Shown here piece after piece: positions 1,430-27,712 of a stretch of 44,988 nucleotides of DNA. A program made the position numbers and the translations under genes. How positions within the stretch are numbered: position 1 is the first letter of the stretch; every line of letters begins with the position of its first letter. The notes beneath the pieces are model-generated. The model ran no database searches and was not told the origin of the DNA. It saw only the letters and a program-made list of their open reading frames with translations. The stretch is from an uncultured Rhodospirillales bacterium (GTDB lineage Bacteria; Pseudomonadota; Alphaproteobacteria; Azospirillales; Azospirillaceae), in assembly GCA_903931735.1 (NCBI GenBank), contig CAIZDL010000088.1, forward strand, positions 1 to 44,988, in the 5' to 3' direction.

Positions 1430-1463
1430 ATGTCGAGAGTGAGGCCTTTGGCGGGGGGGATCG

Positions 1464-1907
1464 ATGCGACTAACCCGATATACCGATTATTGTTTTCGAG
1501 TATTGATTCATACCGGGTTGAAAAATACGGGCCTTTCAACAACTCGAGAGATCAGTGATCGCTATGGAATATCGAGCAATCATCTGATGAAAGTCGTCTA
1601 CGATCTTAATATTAAAGGTTACCTTGAAACCGTTCGTGGAAAGAATGGTGGCATCCGGCTGGGCCGACCTCCGGGGGAGATCAATCTCGGCGCCTTGATC
1701 CGTCATGTTGAAGATGATTTGGCGCTGGTTGAGTGCCACGGCAGCAGCGATCGGTGTCGGATCGGTTCCGCCTGCGTGTTCCGTGGCATTGTCGCCGAGG
1801 CTATGGGCGCTTTTCTCGCGGTTTTAGATCATTACACCCTGGCTGACCTGCTGGCGCCAGGGGCGGAACTTGGGCGGTTATTGGGTCTTGGCACAGAACG
1901 CTCATAG
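1464..1907 (+). CDS. Rrf2-family regulator, NsrR-like
   Basis: 147 residues. The N-terminal winged helix opens MRLTRYTDYCFRVLIHTG and continues with the recognition-helix region ISSNHLMKVVYDLNIKGYLETVRGKNGGIRL, written here only to show family type. Three cysteines with spacing C-x6-C-x5-C (about residues 92-105, in VECHGSSDRCRIGSACVF) match the iron-sulfur cluster ligands of NsrR, the nitric-oxide-sensing repressor. DLALVEC and the C-terminal FLAVLDHYTLADL are also NsrR-like. The ATG follows a GGGGGGGA ribosome-binding stretch. The first half is less GC-rich than its neighbours. IscR or RsrR-type sensing cannot be excluded. It is probably autoregulated through the tandem site at 1390-1429. 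Confidence 0.82.
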   Translation: MRLTRYTDYCFRVLIHTGLKNTGLSTTREISDRYGISSNHLMKVVYDLNIKGYLETVRGKNGGIRLGRPPGEINLGALIRHVEDDLALVECHGSSDRCRIGSACVFRGIVAEAMGAFLAVLDHYTLADLLAPGAELGRLLGLGTERS

Positions 1908-1926
1908 CGGGTGTGGCAAACGGCGT

Positions 1927-2838
1927 TTACTCCAAGCCGGCCTTTTTGCGCACATCATAGGAGCGAGTGTGCGCCCATTTCTCAACGAACTGGGTCAATT
2001 CCGGGTCGGGCGGGTCGGGCAGCATAACTTTCAGCGTCACTAAAAGATTCCCCGGCGTATGCCCTTTGGGGTCTGGGACGCCTTTGTTTTTTAGCCGTAG
2101 CGTCGCTCCCGAGTTGGAGAATTTGGGGATTTTAAGGGCCACCGTGCCGTCGAGCGTCGGAACTTTGATGGTGGCGCCAAGCAGGGCTTCGGGCAGCGTT
2201 ACCGGCACCTCGATATGAATGTCGAGTCCCTTGCGGGTAAAAAACGGGTGTGGGTCAACCAGAAGCTCAACGATGGCGTCTCCCGCCGGACCGCCGCCCG
2301 CGCCGGCCATGCCTTGGCCCTTGAGGCGCAGCTTTTGTTCCGATTCGGAACCGGGCGGCACGGTAAGATCGATGCTCTTGCCGTTCGAGAGGTTGATCCG
2401 TCGTTTGGCGCCGAGCGCCGCTTCGACGAAAGATACGGTTACCGAATATTCAATATCGCTGCCCCGCGCCTTGGTTTCGCGCCGGCCTCCCGCGCCTTTG
2501 CCAAAGAATTCGGCGAAGATGTCCTCGGTATTCAGCCCGGCAAAGGGATCGGCACCCGACCGGCCGTGAGCGCTGCGGCCAGCATGGGCGCGGTTTAAGC
2601 CAAAATCGTGGCGTTCGGCACCGTTCGCGTCGATTTCGCCTTGATCGAAGCGCCGTCGCTTGGCCGGGTCCGAGAGCAGGGTATAGGCCGCCGACACCTC
2701 TTTGAACTTATGCTCAATGTCTCCCCGCCCGGGGTTGAGGTCGGGGTGGTACTGCTTGGCGAGCCTGCGGTAGGCCGCTTTGATGTCCTCGGGGGATGCC
2801 GTGCGGCCAACCCCGAGAACCTGATACGGATCGCGCAT
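1927..2838 (-). CDS. cbpA: CbpA-type DnaJ co-chaperone
   Basis: 303 residues from the ATG at 2838. A J domain (residues 1-65, with HPD in YHPDLNPG) stimulates DnaK ATPase. A Gly/Phe-containing linker and two C-terminal substrate-binding beta domains follow (about 120-300; SIDLTVPPGSESEQKLRLKG and the LPEALLGATIKVPTLDG region). There is no CxxCxGxG zinc-finger region, which makes it a CbpA/DjlA-like class II protein rather than DnaJ itself. The frame stays open upstream to 3033, but that part overlaps the lipoprotein gene and looks non-coding. An in-frame GTG at 2847 is an alternative start nearer a GGGAGGGA sequence. It converges with the Rrf2 gene. Confidence 0.88.
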   Translation of the reverse strand: MRDPYQVLGVGRTASPEDIKAAYRRLAKQYHPDLNPGRGDIEHKFKEVSAAYTLLSDPAKRRRFDQGEIDANGAERHDFGLNRAHAGRSAHGRSGADPFAGLNTEDIFAEFFGKGAGGRRETKARGSDIEYSVTVSFVEAALGAKRRINLSNGKSIDLTVPPGSESEQKLRLKGQGMAGAGGGPAGDAIVELLVDPHPFFTRKGLDIHIEVPVTLPEALLGATIKVPTLDGTVALKIPKFSNSGATLRLKNKGVPDPKGHTPGNLLVTLKVMLPDPPDPELTQFVEKWAHTRSYDVRKKAGLE

Positions 2839-20875: not shown

Positions 20876-22027
20876 ATGGATAACTGGCGTCAACTTCCCG
20901 GTTCCCAATGGCCAATGGGCGAGGCGATTGACGCCTGGACCGATGTTTATTTCAAGCGTACAAAGGCAACGGTTGGACGCTTTGGCGATTGCCTCGTAAC
21001 CTACGCGGTATTTATGCGGCGGCCGGTGATTTCTGCGCCGCGCTTGGCTGTTCAATGGTTGGAAGCGGTGGCGTCGGAACGGGGCGTTGAGGTTCGCGTT
21101 GATCTCCGCCATGCCGAAGGCAAGTGGGTTGGGGCGGGCGATCCGATTCTTTATTACACTGGCTCGCTCCATCATCTGGTTGATCTTGAGACGATCTTGT
21201 TGATGAAGCTGGGGCCGGCGTGCGTTGCGGCGTACAATGCGTACACCATGTGTTCGGATTTGCCCAAGGTGGCCTTTCTGGCCATGGATGCCCGCCATTG
21301 CGCCGGCACCGAGATGGCCGAGATCATGGCGTACGCCTGTTCGGTCGGCTCGGTGCGGGCGAAGCGCAAGGTGGGTGCGGTTGGCTTTATTGGCAACGCT
21401 ACCGATGCCACCGCAGGCTATTTCGGCCCCGAACCGGGCCGCGGCACTATGCCTCACGCCCTGATCGGCTATGCTGGCTCGACTGTACGTGCGGCCGAAA
21501 TGGTCCACGAGACCTTTCCCGAGAGCCCGCTCACAGTGCTGGTGGATTATTTCGGCAAAGAGGTCAGCGACAGCATTGCGTGCGCCAGCCGGTTTCCCGC
21601 GTTGGCGGCATCGGGCCGGTTGGCGGTTCGACTCGATACCGCCGGCAGCCGGTTCGTCGAGGGGCTTGACCCTTCGGCATCTTACGCCGCGCTGGAGCGT
21701 CACGCGCCTGAGGCGGTCCGTGGCTATCGCGATGAAACTCAGTTGCGCTATTTGATTGGCGCCGGGGTTTCGGCCGCGGCGGTTTATCATGTTCGCGATG
21801 CCCTTGATCAAGCGGGCTTCCCCGGCGTCAAGATCGTCGCCTCCAGTGGGTTCGGGCCTGCCAAGTGCCGGGTGATGGCCGAGGCGGCGGCCCCAATCGA
21901 CGTTATCGGCACCGGCTCCTACCTCCCCGAAAAATGGGGCGAGACGTACGCGACCGCCGATATTGTCGAGTATGACGGTGTACGTCGCGTGAAGCTCGGG
22001 CGCGAATTCCTTTTTCCACGGGCTTGA
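20876..22027 (+). CDS. Nicotinate phosphoribosyltransferase
   Basis: 383 residues from ATG 20876, preceded by GGGGGAGG; GTG 20873 is equally in frame. It converts nicotinate plus PRPP to nicotinate mononucleotide, the salvage entry to NAD (Preiss-Handler route). Family features include the N-terminal DAWTDVYFKRTKAT (Asp and Tyr of the substrate site), ETILLMKLGPACVAAYNAY, FLAMDARHCAG and the C-terminal IVASSGFGPAKC with the phosphate-binding IDVIGTGSYLP. It is of the short, archaeal-like type. It complements the de novo nadA-nadB-nadC genes at the other end of the window. Confidence 0.87.
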   Translation: MDNWRQLPGSQWPMGEAIDAWTDVYFKRTKATVGRFGDCLVTYAVFMRRPVISAPRLAVQWLEAVASERGVEVRVDLRHAEGKWVGAGDPILYYTGSLHHLVDLETILLMKLGPACVAAYNAYTMCSDLPKVAFLAMDARHCAGTEMAEIMAYACSVGSVRAKRKVGAVGFIGNATDATAGYFGPEPGRGTMPHALIGYAGSTVRAAEMVHETFPESPLTVLVDYFGKEVSDSIACASRFPALAASGRLAVRLDTAGSRFVEGLDPSASYAALERHAPEAVRGYRDETQLRYLIGAGVSAAAVYHVRDALDQAGFPGVKIVASSGFGPAKCRVMAEAAAPIDVIGTGSYLPEKWGETYATADIVEYDGVRRVKLGREFLFPRA

Positions 22028-22065
22028 GGGACTGGCCCTCTCTGTTTTCCGTAAGGTGACCCTTG

Positions 22066-22095
22066 TCGACAAAAGGGGCCGATGCGCGCTATACT
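22066..22095 (+). promoter_or_regulatory. Putative sigma-70 promoter for the coiled-coil/VWA/J-domain genes
   Basis: TCGACA (22066-22071), an 18-bp spacer, then TATACT (22090-22095), giving a predicted start near 22102, about 30 bp before the ATG at 22133. The hexamers are each one mismatch from consensus. It would drive the three-gene run 22133-23914. Confidence 0.42.
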
Positions 22096-22132: not shown

Positions 22133-22459
22133 ATGGATGATGAACTGAAGGGGCTCTTGGGCCAAGTGCTGACGAAGCTGGGTGCGATCCAGGCCGGCCA
22201 GGACGGAATGCGCGGTGATATCTCGGCACTTCAGGCTGGCCAGGACGGAATGCGCGGTGATATCTCGGCACTTCAGGCTGGGCAGGATGCCTTGCGGGAG
22301 GATGTCTCGGTGGTGCAATCGGGGTTGGAGGAATTGCGGCGAGTCACCAGCGTCAATCATTTTCGGGTTATGGGGCGAATTGAACAGCTTTCGGTGCAAT
22401 TGGACCGGCACTTGGCCTCTCCTCATGGGGCGCCAAATGAGGGCCGCAAGAGCGCCTGA
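22133..22459 (+). CDS. Repeat-containing coiled-coil protein, unknown function
   Basis: 108 residues from ATG 22133, with GGGAAGG 8 bp upstream. The centre holds three tandem 14-residue units: QAGQDGMRGDISAL twice, then the diverged QAGQDALREDVSVV. Fourteen residues are two heptads, and hydrophobic positions recur at heptad spacing from VLTKLGAIQ through GLEELRRV, so a continuous coiled coil is likely. No signal peptide or membrane segment is present. It is the first gene of a run with a VWA-domain gene (13 bp gap) and a J-domain gene, suggesting a shared complex or process. I do not recognise a named family. Confidence 0.75.
   Translation: MDDELKGLLGQVLTKLGAIQAGQDGMRGDISALQAGQDGMRGDISALQAGQDALREDVSVVQSGLEELRRVTSVNHFRVMGRIEQLSVQLDRHLASPHGAPNEGRKSA
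22190..22315 (+). repeat. Three 42-bp tandem repeats inside the coiled-coil gene
   Basis: Units at 22190-22231 and 22232-22273 differ only at one base (GCCGGCCAG against GCTGGCCAG). The third, 22274-22315, is diverged. The near identity of the first two points to recent duplication. Unit length is a multiple of three, so copy-number change would lengthen or shorten the coiled coil without a frameshift. Confidence 0.85.
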
Positions 22460-22472
22460 CTCCGGGTGAGCC

Positions 22473-23192
22473 ATGACGGACACCGGCAAAAATCTCTATA
22501 CGGGTGCCGTCTCCCGGGTGGTGATGGACGCTTTTTTGCGACGGGTGGTGGCAAGCCCGGTGCCCGCGCGTGCGGGGGGCAAGCGAGGGCGGTTGATCTT
22601 TGCCATTGATGCCACGGCCAGCCGTCAGCCGAGCTGGAACCGGGCCTGTAAGCTTCAAAAAGAGATGTTCGAAGCGACCGTGGCGTTGGGCGGGCTCGAT
22701 ATTCAGTTGGTTTATTTTCGTGGTCCGGGGGAATGCAAGGCCGGGCCGTGGGTTTCTGGCGCCTCGGATTTGGCCGGCTGCATGGCCGCAGTCGAGTGCC
22801 TCGCTGGACACACTCAATGGTGCCGGGTGCTCGGCCACGCCGTGAGCGAGACCAAGCGGGCCAGGGTCAATGCCTTGGTTTGCGTCGGTGATGCGTTTGA
22901 AGAAGAAATCGACCATCTTGGTCATGTTGCCGGGCAATTGGGTTTGCTTGGCGTCCCGGTGTTTTGTTTCCAAGAGGGGCAGGACGGTCATACCCGCTTG
23001 GCTTTCCGAGAAGTCGCCAAATTAACCCGGGGCGTTTATTGTCCCTTTGATGCCTCCAGCGCTGCTCAATTGCGGGACTTGCTGTCGGCGGTCGCGGTCT
23101 ATGCGGCCGGCGGCCTTGCTGCGCTCACCGATTTCAGTAAATCACGCGGGGGTGCCGCCCTGTTGCTGACCGACCAGATGGCAAAGCGATAA
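22473..23192 (+). CDS. VWA-like (von Willebrand factor A) domain protein
   Basis: 239 residues, cytoplasmic (no signal or membrane segment). The fold opens with RLIFAIDATASRQPSWNRAC; IDATAS fits the MIDAS metal-site pattern D-x-S/T-x-S. Later strands read LDIQLVYFRGPGECKAG and VNALVCVGDAFEEE, and ARVNALVCVGDA would carry the third MIDAS acidic residue. VWA proteins usually bind partner proteins through a divalent metal. It lies between the coiled-coil gene and a membrane J-domain gene on one strand with gaps of 13 and 17 bp. I know no assigned function; the trio may form one assembly factor or chaperone unit. Confidence 0.75.
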   Translation: MTDTGKNLYTGAVSRVVMDAFLRRVVASPVPARAGGKRGRLIFAIDATASRQPSWNRACKLQKEMFEATVALGGLDIQLVYFRGPGECKAGPWVSGASDLAGCMAAVECLAGHTQWCRVLGHAVSETKRARVNALVCVGDAFEEEIDHLGHVAGQLGLLGVPVFCFQEGQDGHTRLAFREVAKLTRGVYCPFDASSAAQLRDLLSAVAVYAAGGLAALTDFSKSRGGAALLLTDQMAKR

Positions 23193-23209
23193 GTCAGGGG
23201 GAGGGGGGA

Positions 23210-23914
23210 GTGCCGGTCGTCCTGTTTGGGGTTGCGCTGGTGATTGGCGGTGTGTTGCTGGCTCGCGGCTTCCTCAGCCTTGAGCCGCATGATTTGGCGA
23301 AGATTCTGCGCGCAACGGGGGCTGCGGCGGCCATTTTGGTCGGGGTGCTGCTGGTCCTTTCCGGTCGGGAAGGCTTGCTGCTGACCGGGTTGATCCTTGG
23401 GGTGCCGTGGCTGATGCGCCGGGGGTGGTGGCGTGGCCCGAGGGGCGGGGCCTCGCCCGGCCGGGAATCGCGGATCGAGACCAAGCTCCTGCGCATGACC
23501 CTCGACCACGATAGTGGCCAGTTCGCCGGGGAGGTGGTGGCCGGCCGGTTTCAAGGGCGGCGGCTTGACCTGTTGAGCCCCGAGGAGCTTGATGCGTTGC
23601 TGGTCGAGTGCCGGAGCGAAGACCCGGAAGCGTTGCCGGTGCTTGAAGCGTGGCTTGATCGTAGGTTTGGCCCCGAGTGGCGCGAGCGGGCCGAAAAGGG
23701 TGCCGAGGGCGGTGCCGGCCCGGGCCTCGGCCGGGGAGCGTCGATGACCGAGGAGGAGGCGTTGCGGGTTCTTGGCCTTGCCCATGGCGCGAGCCCGGAG
23801 GATATCCGCGACGCGCATCGGCGGCTGATGCTGCGGGTTCATCCCGATCATGGCGGCTCGACGTGGCTTGCGGCCAAGCTCAATCAGGCCCGCGACCTGC
23901 TCTTGAAATCCTAG
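23210..23914 (+). CDS. Membrane-anchored J-domain protein (TIM14/Pam18-like)
   Basis: 234 residues from GTG 23210, behind a strong GGGGAGGGGGG ribosome-binding stretch. Two or three N-terminal hydrophobic segments (about 1-20, 38-70) anchor it in the inner membrane. A mid region (LRMTLDHDSGQFAGEVVAG) is typical of alphaproteobacterial DnaJ-like proteins. The C-terminal J domain (about 180-234) has EEALRVLGLAHGASPEDIRD and the HPD in RVHPDHGGS. The HPDHGGS form and C-terminal placement match TIM14/Pam18, the mitochondrial import motor J protein. It should recruit DnaK to the membrane. It probably belongs with the VWA gene upstream. galU follows after 148 bp. Confidence 0.86.
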   Translation: MPVVLFGVALVIGGVLLARGFLSLEPHDLAKILRATGAAAAILVGVLLVLSGREGLLLTGLILGVPWLMRRGWWRGPRGGASPGRESRIETKLLRMTLDHDSGQFAGEVVAGRFQGRRLDLLSPEELDALLVECRSEDPEALPVLEAWLDRRFGPEWRERAEKGAEGGAGPGLGRGASMTEEEALRVLGLAHGASPEDIRDAHRRLMLRVHPDHGGSTWLAAKLNQARDLLLKS

Positions 23915-24062: not shown

Positions 24063-24935
24063 ATGAGAAAACCTGTACGCAAGGCGGTGTTTCCGGTAGC
24101 TGGGCTCGGAACACGTTTTTTGCCCGCGACCAAAGCAATTCCAAAGGAAATGCTGCCGTTGGTCGACAAGCCCCTGCTTCAGCACGCGGTTGATGAGGCG
24201 CGCGAGGCCGGGATCGAGGAATTTGTTTTCGTCACCGGCGGGGGCAAGCGGGCGATTGAAGACCATTTTGACGCCGATAACGAGTTGAATGGCTTTCTTG
24301 AGGCTCGCGGCAACACCGAGGGGCTGGCTGCGGTTCGGCAGACCGAGATTTCGCCGGGCAAGCTCTTTTACACCCGTCAGCAGCAGCCGTTGGGGCTGGG
24401 CCATGCGGTGTGGTGCGCGCGGGCCGTGATCGGCAATGATCCGTTCGCGATCATTCTGCCCGATGATTATGTGCTGGCGGAAAAGCCATGCCTCAAGCAG
24501 ATGGTTGAGGCCTATCAGGAGGTTGGTGGCAACATCGTTGCGGTGGAGGATGTGCCGCGCGAACAGACCAACCGGTATGGCATTCTCAAGGTCGGTCACG
24601 ATGATGGCCGGCTGGTGGTGGTTGATGGGATGGTTGAAAAGCCAAAATCCGAGGAGGCGCCGTCTACCTTGTCAATCATCGGGCGCTATATTCTTCAGCC
24701 CGAGGTCATGGATATCCTGTCGCTCCGCGAACGCGGTGCGGGCGGTGAGATTCAGTTGACGGACTCTATGGCGAAGTTGATCGGCCGGCAGCCGTTTCAC
24801 GGTTTGCGCTTCGAGGGCATTCGATATGATTGCGGCGGCAAGGTTGGTTTTCTTGAGGCCACCATTGCCCACGCCTTGACTCGGCCCGACATGGCCGACA
24901 AGGTGCGCGAGCTTTTGAAAAAGTATGCGTCCTAA
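24063..24935 (+). CDS. galU: UTP-glucose-1-phosphate uridylyltransferase
   Basis: 290 residues from ATG 24063. GalU makes UDP-glucose from glucose 1-phosphate and UTP. The nucleotidyltransferase signature AVFPVAGLGTRFLPATKAIP followed by KEMLPLVDKPLLQ starts at residue 7. FVFVTGGGKRAIEDHFD, QQQPLGLGHAVWCA and FAIILPDDYVL are typical of GalU. It begins a three-gene run: ugd starts 27 bp downstream and the phosphohexomutase overlaps ugd. Together they convert glucose 6-phosphate to UDP-glucose and UDP-glucuronate for envelope polysaccharides. Confidence 0.96.
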   Translation: MRKPVRKAVFPVAGLGTRFLPATKAIPKEMLPLVDKPLLQHAVDEAREAGIEEFVFVTGGGKRAIEDHFDADNELNGFLEARGNTEGLAAVRQTEISPGKLFYTRQQQPLGLGHAVWCARAVIGNDPFAIILPDDYVLAEKPCLKQMVEAYQEVGGNIVAVEDVPREQTNRYGILKVGHDDGRLVVVDGMVEKPKSEEAPSTLSIIGRYILQPEVMDILSLRERGAGGEIQLTDSMAKLIGRQPFHGLRFEGIRYDCGGKVGFLEATIAHALTRPDMADKVRELLKKYAS

Positions 24936-24962: not shown

Positions 24963-26303
24963 ATGCGCATCGCAGTGATCGGAACCGGGTATGTCGGGCT
25001 GGTGTCTGGCGCTTGTTTTTCCGAATTTGGCGTCACCACCGTGTGCGTCGACAAGGATGCCGAGAAGATCGCGCGCTTGAAAGACGGCAAAATGCCGATC
25101 TATGAGCCCGGGCTGGATGACTTGGTGTTGAAGAATGTCAACGCGGACCGGTTGTCCTTTACCACGAACCTCGCGGGTGCGGTGGCGGGGGCCGATGCGG
25201 TGTTTATCGCCGTTGGCACCCCAACCCGGCCGGAAGATGGGGCGGCCGATTTGCGCTATGTTTATGGCGTCGCCGAGGAATTGGCCCGTGGGCTGGACGG
25301 CTACACCGTGGTGGTGACCAAATCGACGGTGCCGGTGGGCACCGGGCGGGAGGTGGAAGCCATCGTCCGCCGCACCCGGCCCGACGTAGATTTCGATATC
25401 GCCTCCAACCCCGAGTTCTTGCGTGAGGGGTCGGCGATCAACGACTTCATGCGCCCGGACCGGGTGGTGATCGGCGCTGAGTCCGAGCGGGCGCGGGAGA
25501 CCATGCGGCGGCTTTACCGGCCGCTTTACCTGATCGAGACGCCGATTGTCATGACCTCGGTTGAAACAGCGGAGTTGACCAAGTACGCCGCCAACGCTTT
25601 TCTTGCCACCAAGATCACGTTTATTAACGAGATCGCCGACTTGTGCGAGAAGGTCGGCGCCGACGTTCACGATGTTGCGCGCGGCATTGGTCTCGATGGT
25701 CGCATCGGCAAAAAATTTCTCCATCCCGGCCCGGGCTATGGCGGTTCGTGCTTCCCCAAAGACACCATGGCGCTGGTGCAAACCGCGCGCAAGGCCGGGG
25801 CGCCGGCCCGGATCGTCGAGGCGGTCGTCGAAGTGAACGACCGACGCAAGAAGCAGATGGCCGAGCGTATCATCACCGCTTGCGGTGGCTCGGTGGCGGG
25901 CAAAACCATCGGTGTGCTCGGGGTGACCTTCAAGCCAAACACCGACGACATGCGGGATGCCCCGGCGCTGGAAATCGTGCCCGCGCTTCAGGCCGCCGGG
26001 GCGCGAATTCGGGCCTACGACCCGGAAGGTATGGAGGAGGCCCGCAAGCTGTTGACCGGCATCGAGTGGTGTCGGGATGCGTATGACGCGCTGTCTGGCG
26101 CCGATGCCGCCACCGTGCTCACCGAGTGGAACGAGTTCCGCGCCCTCGATTTCGGGCGGATGCGCAAGGCGATGAAGGGGCTGGTGGTTGTCGATTTGCG
26201 CAATGTCTATAACCCCGATGAAGTCGCCGCCGCCGGGTTCCATTATTCGTCGATCGGACGGCCGCGCAAGGGCCATCTGCCGGCGGAGGAGGCCGATCAG
26301 TGA
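24963..26303 (+). CDS. ugd: UDP-glucose 6-dehydrogenase
   Basis: 446 residues. It oxidises UDP-glucose twice with NAD to UDP-glucuronate. The N-terminal NAD-binding motif [17 protein letters not shown] is at residues 3-19, the central dimer helix includes [20 protein letters not shown], and the catalytic cysteine sits in [12 protein letters not shown] (about residue 262). The C-terminal UDP-binding domain has [17 protein letters not shown]. Its stop overlaps the GTG start of the phosphohexomutase gene by 4 bp, so the two are translationally coupled. Confidence 0.96.
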
Positions 26304-27712
26304 GCGCTTGCCCGCCTGGGGGTGATCATCGTCACCGGTTTCACCCCACCGTTTTGCGTGAGTATGACATTCGCGGCATTGTGGGCGAGACGCTGACCGA
26401 GGCCGATCTTCGTGCCGTCGGGCGGGCTTTTGGCACGGTGGTGGTGCGGGATGGCGGCAGTCTGGTGTGTGTCGGGTATGACGGGCGGCTCAGTTCCCCG
26501 GCGTTGGAAGCGGCTTTGGTCGAGGGGCTGGTCAGTTGCGGCCTTGCGGTCGAGCGGATTGGGCTGGGGCCGACCCCGATGCTCTATTATGCCGCCTGCG
26601 AGCGCGGCGCCGATGGCGGCGTGATGATCACCGGCTCGCACAATCCGCCCAGCTACAACGGCATTAAAATGGTGCTGGGCAAGCGACCATTTTATGGGCA
26701 GGACATTCAGGATTTGGGGCGGATTGCCGGGGCCGGCGATTATGCCACCGGCGTTGGCAGTGCCTTGGATATCGACCTTCGGGCTGTGTATGTCGACCGT
26801 CTGGCGCGCGACTTCGCCGGGGTGAAGCCGCTCAAGGTGGCGTGGGATGCCGGCAACGGGGCGACAGGCGAAATCATGCGTCGTCTGACTGCGCGGTTGC
26901 CGGGGGAGCATTTTTTGCTGTTCGACACCATCGACGGTAGCTTTCCCAACCATCACCCCGACCCGACGGTGCCGGAAAATCTGGTGGATTTACAGCGGGT
27001 GGTGGCCGAACAGGGCTGTGATTTCGGGGTTGGATTCGATGGCGACGGCGACCGTATCGGCGCGATTGACCACCTTGGCCGGATTGTTTGGGGCGACCAA
27101 TTGCTGGCGCTTTATGCGGCTGAGGTGCTCACGCGCTACCCGGGCGGCACCATCATCGCCGATGTGAAATCCAGCGAGACCCTGTTCGACGAGGTGGCCC
27201 GCTTGGGGGGGCGGCCATTGATGTGGAAGACCGGGCACTCGCTGCTGAAGGCTAAAATGGCCGAAACCGGCTCGCCTTTGGCGGGTGAGATGAGTGGCCA
27301 TATCTTTTTCGCCGACCGGTGGTATGGCTTCGACGACGCTCTTTATTGCGCTCTGCGTTTGCTATCGTTGGTTTCGGATGCGGGGGTGTCGCTCGCGACG
27401 CTGCGGGATCGTCTGCCTGCGGTGATCAACACGCCGGAAATTCGCTTTCAGGTCAGCGAGGAGCGAAAGTTTGCCGTGGTCGGCGAGGTTCGGGCGCGGC
27501 TGGATGCCGAGGGCGCCAACGTTACCGATATCGATGGTGTTCGGGTTAAAACGGCCGATGGCTGGTGGTTGCTGCGCGCTTCCAACACCCAGGATGTTTT
27601 GGTGGCCCGCGCCGAAGCGGCGAACCAAGAGGGGCTGGATCGGCTGCTGGATTTGTTACTGGGCCAGCTTCGCCAAAGCGGCATCGATGCGCCGTGCGGG
27701 ATGGCTAACTGA
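26300..27712 (+). CDS. Phosphomannomutase/phosphoglucomutase
   Basis: 470 residues from GTG 26300. It is an alpha-D-phosphohexomutase of the AlgC/ManB type, interconverting hexose 1- and 6-phosphates. It opens [21 protein letters not shown]. The phosphoserine loop is [12 protein letters not shown] (about residue 110), the metal loop FDGDGDRIG (about 246-254), the sugar-binding loop GEMSGHIFF and the C-terminal phosphate loop LLRASNTQD. It supplies glucose 1-phosphate to GalU, mannose 1-phosphate to other pathways, or both. It is coupled to ugd; its last 8 bp overlap the end of the convergent STAS gene. Confidence 0.94.

Follow-up and report, generated by a model that had tools for sequence, protein, structure and literature searches.

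Across many alphaproteobacteria two adjacent genes, encoding a soluble VWA-domain protein and a J protein with a predicted membrane anchor, are retained or lost jointly, a pattern indicative of an undescribed two-protein chaperone module. The pair lies in the window, by which we mean the whole stretch of 44,988 nucleotides from an uncultured Rhodospirillales bacterium that was analysed here. We give roughly even chances to the reading that the two proteins form an inner-membrane, two-component DnaK co-chaperone module in which the J protein is tethered and the VWA protein acts as an adaptor docked on its middle domain, with clients in the envelope or in cell division. The preliminary description had tentatively assigned three genes to an undescribed membrane-linked chaperone or quality-control system; the VWA and J genes uphold the idea of a module, as a conserved pair that is lost and duplicated jointly, while the coiled-coil protein drops out as a member.

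No description of the VWA–J pair was found in the open-licence literature that was searched, and an earlier account may exist elsewhere. The pair is widespread among alphaproteobacteria, a large share of which carry it (Azospirillum brasilense among them), but annotations do not go beyond ‘VWA domain-containing protein’ or ‘hypothetical protein’ for the first protein and ‘DnaJ domain-containing protein’ for the second. Bacterial J proteins of the Tim14 type gain a specific and testable partner as well as a genomic home.

Locus layout and conserved neighbourhood

Three open reading frames follow each other on the forward strand at positions 22133–22459 (108 aa, coiled-coil repeat protein), 22473–23192 (239 aa, VWA protein) and 23210–23914 (234 aa, J protein). 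The frames are real and the gaps between them measure 13 and 17 nt, as the initial claim of three closely spaced genes had it. They are preceded by genes for a class-II DAHP synthase and a nicotinate-phosphoribosyltransferase-like protein and followed by three conserved downstream neighbours on the same strand, namely galU (24063–24935; UTP-glucose-1-phosphate uridylyltransferase, PF00483), ugd (24963–26303; UDP-glucose dehydrogenase, PF03721/PF00984/PF03720) and a phosphoglucomutase/phosphomannomutase gene (26300–27712; PF02878–PF02880 and PF00408). No RNA elements reached Rfam thresholds.

The usual gene order in relatives is (mipZ)–VWA–J–galU–ugd–pgm, then dacC on the opposite strand, often with clpS–clpA. 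Of 70 VWA loci 50 have galU downstream on the same strand, 45 have ugd and 42 have pgm, and mipZ lies upstream of the VWA gene in 23. The ATPase encoded upstream of the VWA gene in another genome is a true MipZ (365 bits); the source genome, a draft of 291 contigs, contains no true MipZ and its best match to the family scores 53 bits, so that this genome seems to have lost mipZ from the ancestral locus. The genes around the pair suggest a link to division and to the metabolism of envelope sugars, although a neighbour is not the same as a client. At one locus (L042) a gene for a DjlA-like protein (1460–2197, reverse strand) is situated a few kb from the VWA–J pair.

A membrane J protein with a Tim14-type J domain

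The third gene (23210–23914, forward strand) starts with GTG and encodes a protein whose AlphaFold2 model (pLDDT 86.1, pTM 0.51) consists of three helices, an alpha/beta middle domain and a J domain. The three hydrophobic helices are N-terminal (residues 2–23, 26–50 and 54–73 in the secondary structure of the model; 23210–23428), and hydropathy and positive-inside charges across 73 family members fit an N-out/C-in topology. The prediction is thus an inner-membrane anchor and a cytoplasmic J domain. The middle domain (residues 85–168; 23462–23713) carries the motif LDHDSG and is modelled with confidence; it has no Pfam match, and the matches obtained in fold searches with the J protein were drawn by the J domain only. 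That C-terminal domain (23741–23908) is a J domain, with the fold of the family and with HPD (codons 23840–23848) between helices II and III, and HPD is kept in about 72 of the 73 J proteins. PF00226 is matched with an E value of 1.1e-5; the copy in the window scores 25.9 bits, just under the Pfam cut-off of 27.8, over the first half of the Pfam model only.

The closest solved structure to the J domain is yeast Tim14 (2guz_A), with a phmmer E value of 7.3e-10 compared to 5.9e-5 for the next match, 40% identity over 62 residues and a VIA-align Z score of 10.6 as opposed to 8.6 for the next J domain. The J-domain tree, which draws on about 60 sites, places Tim14 inside the J family and apart from DjlA and CbpA with a support of 98 that concerns this grouping and not the position of Tim14 within the family. 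The protein had been introduced as a TIM14-like inner-membrane J protein, a designation that the three helices, the HPD-bearing J domain and the nearest structure sustain, with the membrane placement being predicted.

Could the J protein then work as Tim14 does, beside a membrane translocase or insertase, bringing DnaK to emerging or inserting chains, with the VWA protein as a docking factor at that site? The kinship of the J domain with Tim14 in both sequence and structure, in one family set against DjlA and CbpA, the predicted membrane anchor and the listing of Pam18 among proteins of alphaproteobacterial affiliation in a 2026 study (PMC13428257) all speak for such a motor-type co-chaperone. 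However, the conserved neighbourhood contains no translocase gene, the Tim44-family protein of the source genome is encoded on another contig and half of the source's order lacks the pair. On balance we consider this role rather unlikely.

Joint retention and loss of the VWA and J genes

Of 82 genomes of the source's order 41 carry the VWA gene together with the J gene and the other 41 carry neither of them; the pair-less genomes include one (G074) with a 44-residue VWA fragment. Wherever contigs allow, the J gene begins shortly 3' of the VWA gene, and in one genome (G047) it is cut by the contig end. The conservation across the order that the preliminary description had proposed to check for all three genes is therefore a property of the pair, kept or lost jointly, and not of the coiled-coil gene. 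In a congener of the source that is 98% complete (G048) both the VWA and the J gene are gone, a natural loss that is useful for comparison.

The pattern extends through the class. The VWA gene occurs in 101 of 289 alphaproteobacteria, the long form of the J gene in 108 and both in 100, and 97 of 103 VWA copies stand directly upstream of a J gene. The association of VWA and long J has a Fisher p value of 8e-67, which ignores kinship and overstates independence because the genomes are related. Eight genomes have a long J without a VWA gene. The reverse case, VWA without a long J, was met once, and there the VWA copy is interrupted by an internal stop and the genome is 10% contaminated. Since the VWA gene is never found intact without J, while J exists without VWA, the VWA protein would be the accessory partner. 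In G180 (locus L191) the VWA gene has an internal stop and the Pam18-type match of the genome covers the J-domain end only; this VWA copy is possibly a product of decay or part of a contaminant contig.

Pairs have been duplicated as units in four genomes (G055, G056, G263 and G365), and five genomes have kept both genes even though these are no longer adjacent. In two of these five, G146 and G358, the block is split, with the VWA gene near mipZ and the J gene with galU. Azospirillum brasilense and Microvirga carry plasmid-borne pairs. Beyond the class a single genus has the pair, in three genomes, and in the two that were read more widely neither galU nor mipZ is nearby. One of the duplicated loci (L169 in G056) reads VWA–J–VWA–J in tandem, followed by galU–ugd–pgm.

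These observations bear on the argument that VWA and J do not interact and merely cohabit an operon, their ancestral order being preserved by galU–ugd–pgm. The whole block from mipZ to pgm is indeed syntenic, and the J gene of VWA-less genomes often still sits beside galU. Against this, the loss and duplication of both genes as one and the existence of pairs remote from galU, together with the confinement of intact VWA genes to genomes with a long J, make mere cohabitation unlikely in our estimation.

The middle domain follows the VWA protein

The preferred reading of a docked VWA adaptor draws on the distribution of the middle domain. Five VWA-less genomes were inspected, and all have a short J protein, with open frames of 157–184 aa that comprise the three helices and the J domain only. 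Among the genomes whose best Pam18-type match was listed, long J proteins occur with and without VWA in 100 and 8 genomes, respectively, and matches confined to the J-domain end in 1 and 32, where short-J status was mostly read from match extents rather than from inspected proteins. The LDHDSG motif is mostly altered in the long J proteins that lack a VWA partner. The absence of the middle domain where VWA is absent suggests that this domain is the site on which the VWA protein docks. A mirror-tree test of VWA rates against those of the membrane part, the middle domain and the J domain gave partial r values of 0.35, 0.41 and 0.46, respectively; correlations so nearly equal over the J protein express no preference for the middle domain and are no evidence for docking.

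A soluble VWA protein with an invariant MIDAS set

The VWA protein (22473–23192, forward strand) is soluble and its AlphaFold2 model has a pLDDT of 86.6. Compared with the PDB, the model gives Foldseek E values down to 3e-8 and VIA Z scores up to 18.7 (171 residues, rmsd 2.4), its closest folds being the VWA domains of TFIIH p44, Rpn10, ArnB and others (Z 16–19). PF13519 (VWA_2) matches 12 of 21 family members, at best with 3.6e-5, and does not match the copy in the window. MIDAS loop 1 has the form DxTxS (D46-A-T48-A-S50; 22608–22622), with T in place of the first S, and the distal residues are T114 (codon 22812–22814) and D140 (codon 22890–22892). None of the five residues of the set (D46, T48, S50, T114 and D140) varies among the 73 relatives that were aligned. 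By its modelled Rossmann-type fold and its sequence motif this is a VWA protein with a putative metal site, and the initial assignment to the MIDAS type is confirmed by the fold and the complete, invariant set.

MoxR ATPases are common partners of VWA proteins (PMC9976466), and the one described here might likewise serve a MoxR-type AAA+ ATPase encoded elsewhere, comparable to NorD/NorQ and ViaA/RavA, with the J protein only helping that complex to fold. Weak matches to PF05762 (VWA_CoxE) in 5 of the 21 family members would agree with such a partnership. Yet no such AAA+ gene, and hence no adjacent MoxR-type partner, is among the recurrent neighbours of the approximately 70 loci, and we judge this arrangement to be very unlikely.

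The coiled-coil gene is a local insertion

The first of the three genes (22133–22459, forward strand) lies outside the conserved unit. It contains three copies of a 42-nt repeat (22190–22315), of which the first two are 98% identical, indicating a recent internal duplication. Two congeners (G049 and G050) have the VWA gene directly after the nicotinate-phosphoribosyltransferase-like gene with no coiled-coil gene in between. Of 81 genomes of the source's order 14 encode relatives of the coiled-coil protein, either at a great distance from the VWA gene or on a different contig, and three copies in the source genome match it. The coiled-coil gene is a local insertion particular to the source genome and is unrelated to the VWA–J pair. 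The neighbourhood in relatives, on which the preliminary description had made its single unit of three genes depend, thus retains the pair and discards the coiled-coil gene. Conservation instead continues on the downstream side, as far as galU–ugd–pgm.

Within the source genome the coiled-coil gene is probably co-transcribed with the VWA and J genes. A promoter-like site, TCGACA-N18-TATACT (22066–22095, forward strand), marks a possible local transcript start and is preceded by a terminator-like hairpin (22026–22042), both of them identified by consensus scan only. An assembly of all three proteins, for which the start of the VWA gene 13 nt past the coiled-coil stop and the single promoter-like site upstream might be invoked, is extremely improbable, the gene being missing from the congeners' locus and its relatives unlinked and multi-copy, which rules it out as a member of the module. 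No PADLOC model matches any of the three proteins, and a reading as anti-phage defence was rejected.

Proposed mechanism

The two-component module that we favour is built on features observed by computation, namely the gene pairing, the folds and motifs, the topology signals and the co-loss of the middle domain with VWA. From these we infer that the two proteins dock physically, what the middle domain does, that DnaK is stimulated and what the clients are. The three N-terminal helices would hold the J protein in the membrane such that the middle domain and the Tim14-type J domain face the cytoplasm, where the latter would recruit DnaK. The soluble VWA protein would dock on the middle domain, and its MIDAS metal site may either select clients or toggle the J protein on and off. 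The outcome would be DnaK action confined to a defined site at the membrane. Judging from the locus with its mipZ, galU–ugd–pgm and dacC genes, proteins of division or of envelope biogenesis are the probable clients.

Comparison with known chaperone systems

Canonical DnaJ and CbpA share the HPD-containing J domain with the membrane J protein, which has no DnaJ_C and possesses membrane helices instead. The window also encodes a CbpA-type J protein (DnaJ and DnaJ_C, no membrane part) at approximately 1930–2838 on the reverse strand, some 20 kb away from the gene for the membrane J protein. DjlA resembles the J protein in having a C-terminal J domain behind an intervening domain. The DjlA model matches all 21 family members weakly (20.5 bits for the copy in the window against a cut-off of 162), and identity with DjlA was rejected because the match is restricted to residues 179–214 and the J domain groups apart. 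The DjlA of Caulobacter, which is without a membrane anchor (PMC10754441), is a different J protein.

With the MoxR AAA+/VWA pairs, NorQ–NorD and RavA–ViaA, the VWA–J pair shares the logic of a VWA/MIDAS protein operating with an ATP-driven machine (PMC9976466, PMC9489729), but the partner is an Hsp70 co-chaperone rather than an AAA+ ATPase. The VWA–J pair thereby suggests a new pairing, of a VWA/MIDAS protein with an Hsp70 co-chaperone, besides those already known.

Tim14/Pam18 of the mitochondrial TIM23 import motor has Pam16 as its partner and works at the import channel. In common with the J protein described here it has a membrane anchor and a short C-terminal J domain that ends soon after the signature HPDxGGS...A.K.N.A. 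In contrast, Tim14/Pam18 has one transmembrane anchor and no domain between it and the J domain, whereas the bacterial protein has three predicted helices followed by a middle domain of some 84 residues. Its gene is paired with a VWA gene, and nothing in the analysis indicated a part in protein import. Short J proteins from VWA-less genomes resemble Tim14 more than the long J does. We tentatively suggest, as an idea that is rather unlikely, that the bacterial family ancestral to Tim14/Pam18 formed the membrane component of a DnaK module guided by VWA, encoded next to the division regulator gene mipZ and envelope-sugar genes, and that joint loss of VWA and the middle domain, as in the present-day short J proteins, would have yielded the Tim14-like architecture that mitochondria used for import. 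The pair touches on the role of Tim14-type J proteins before mitochondria.
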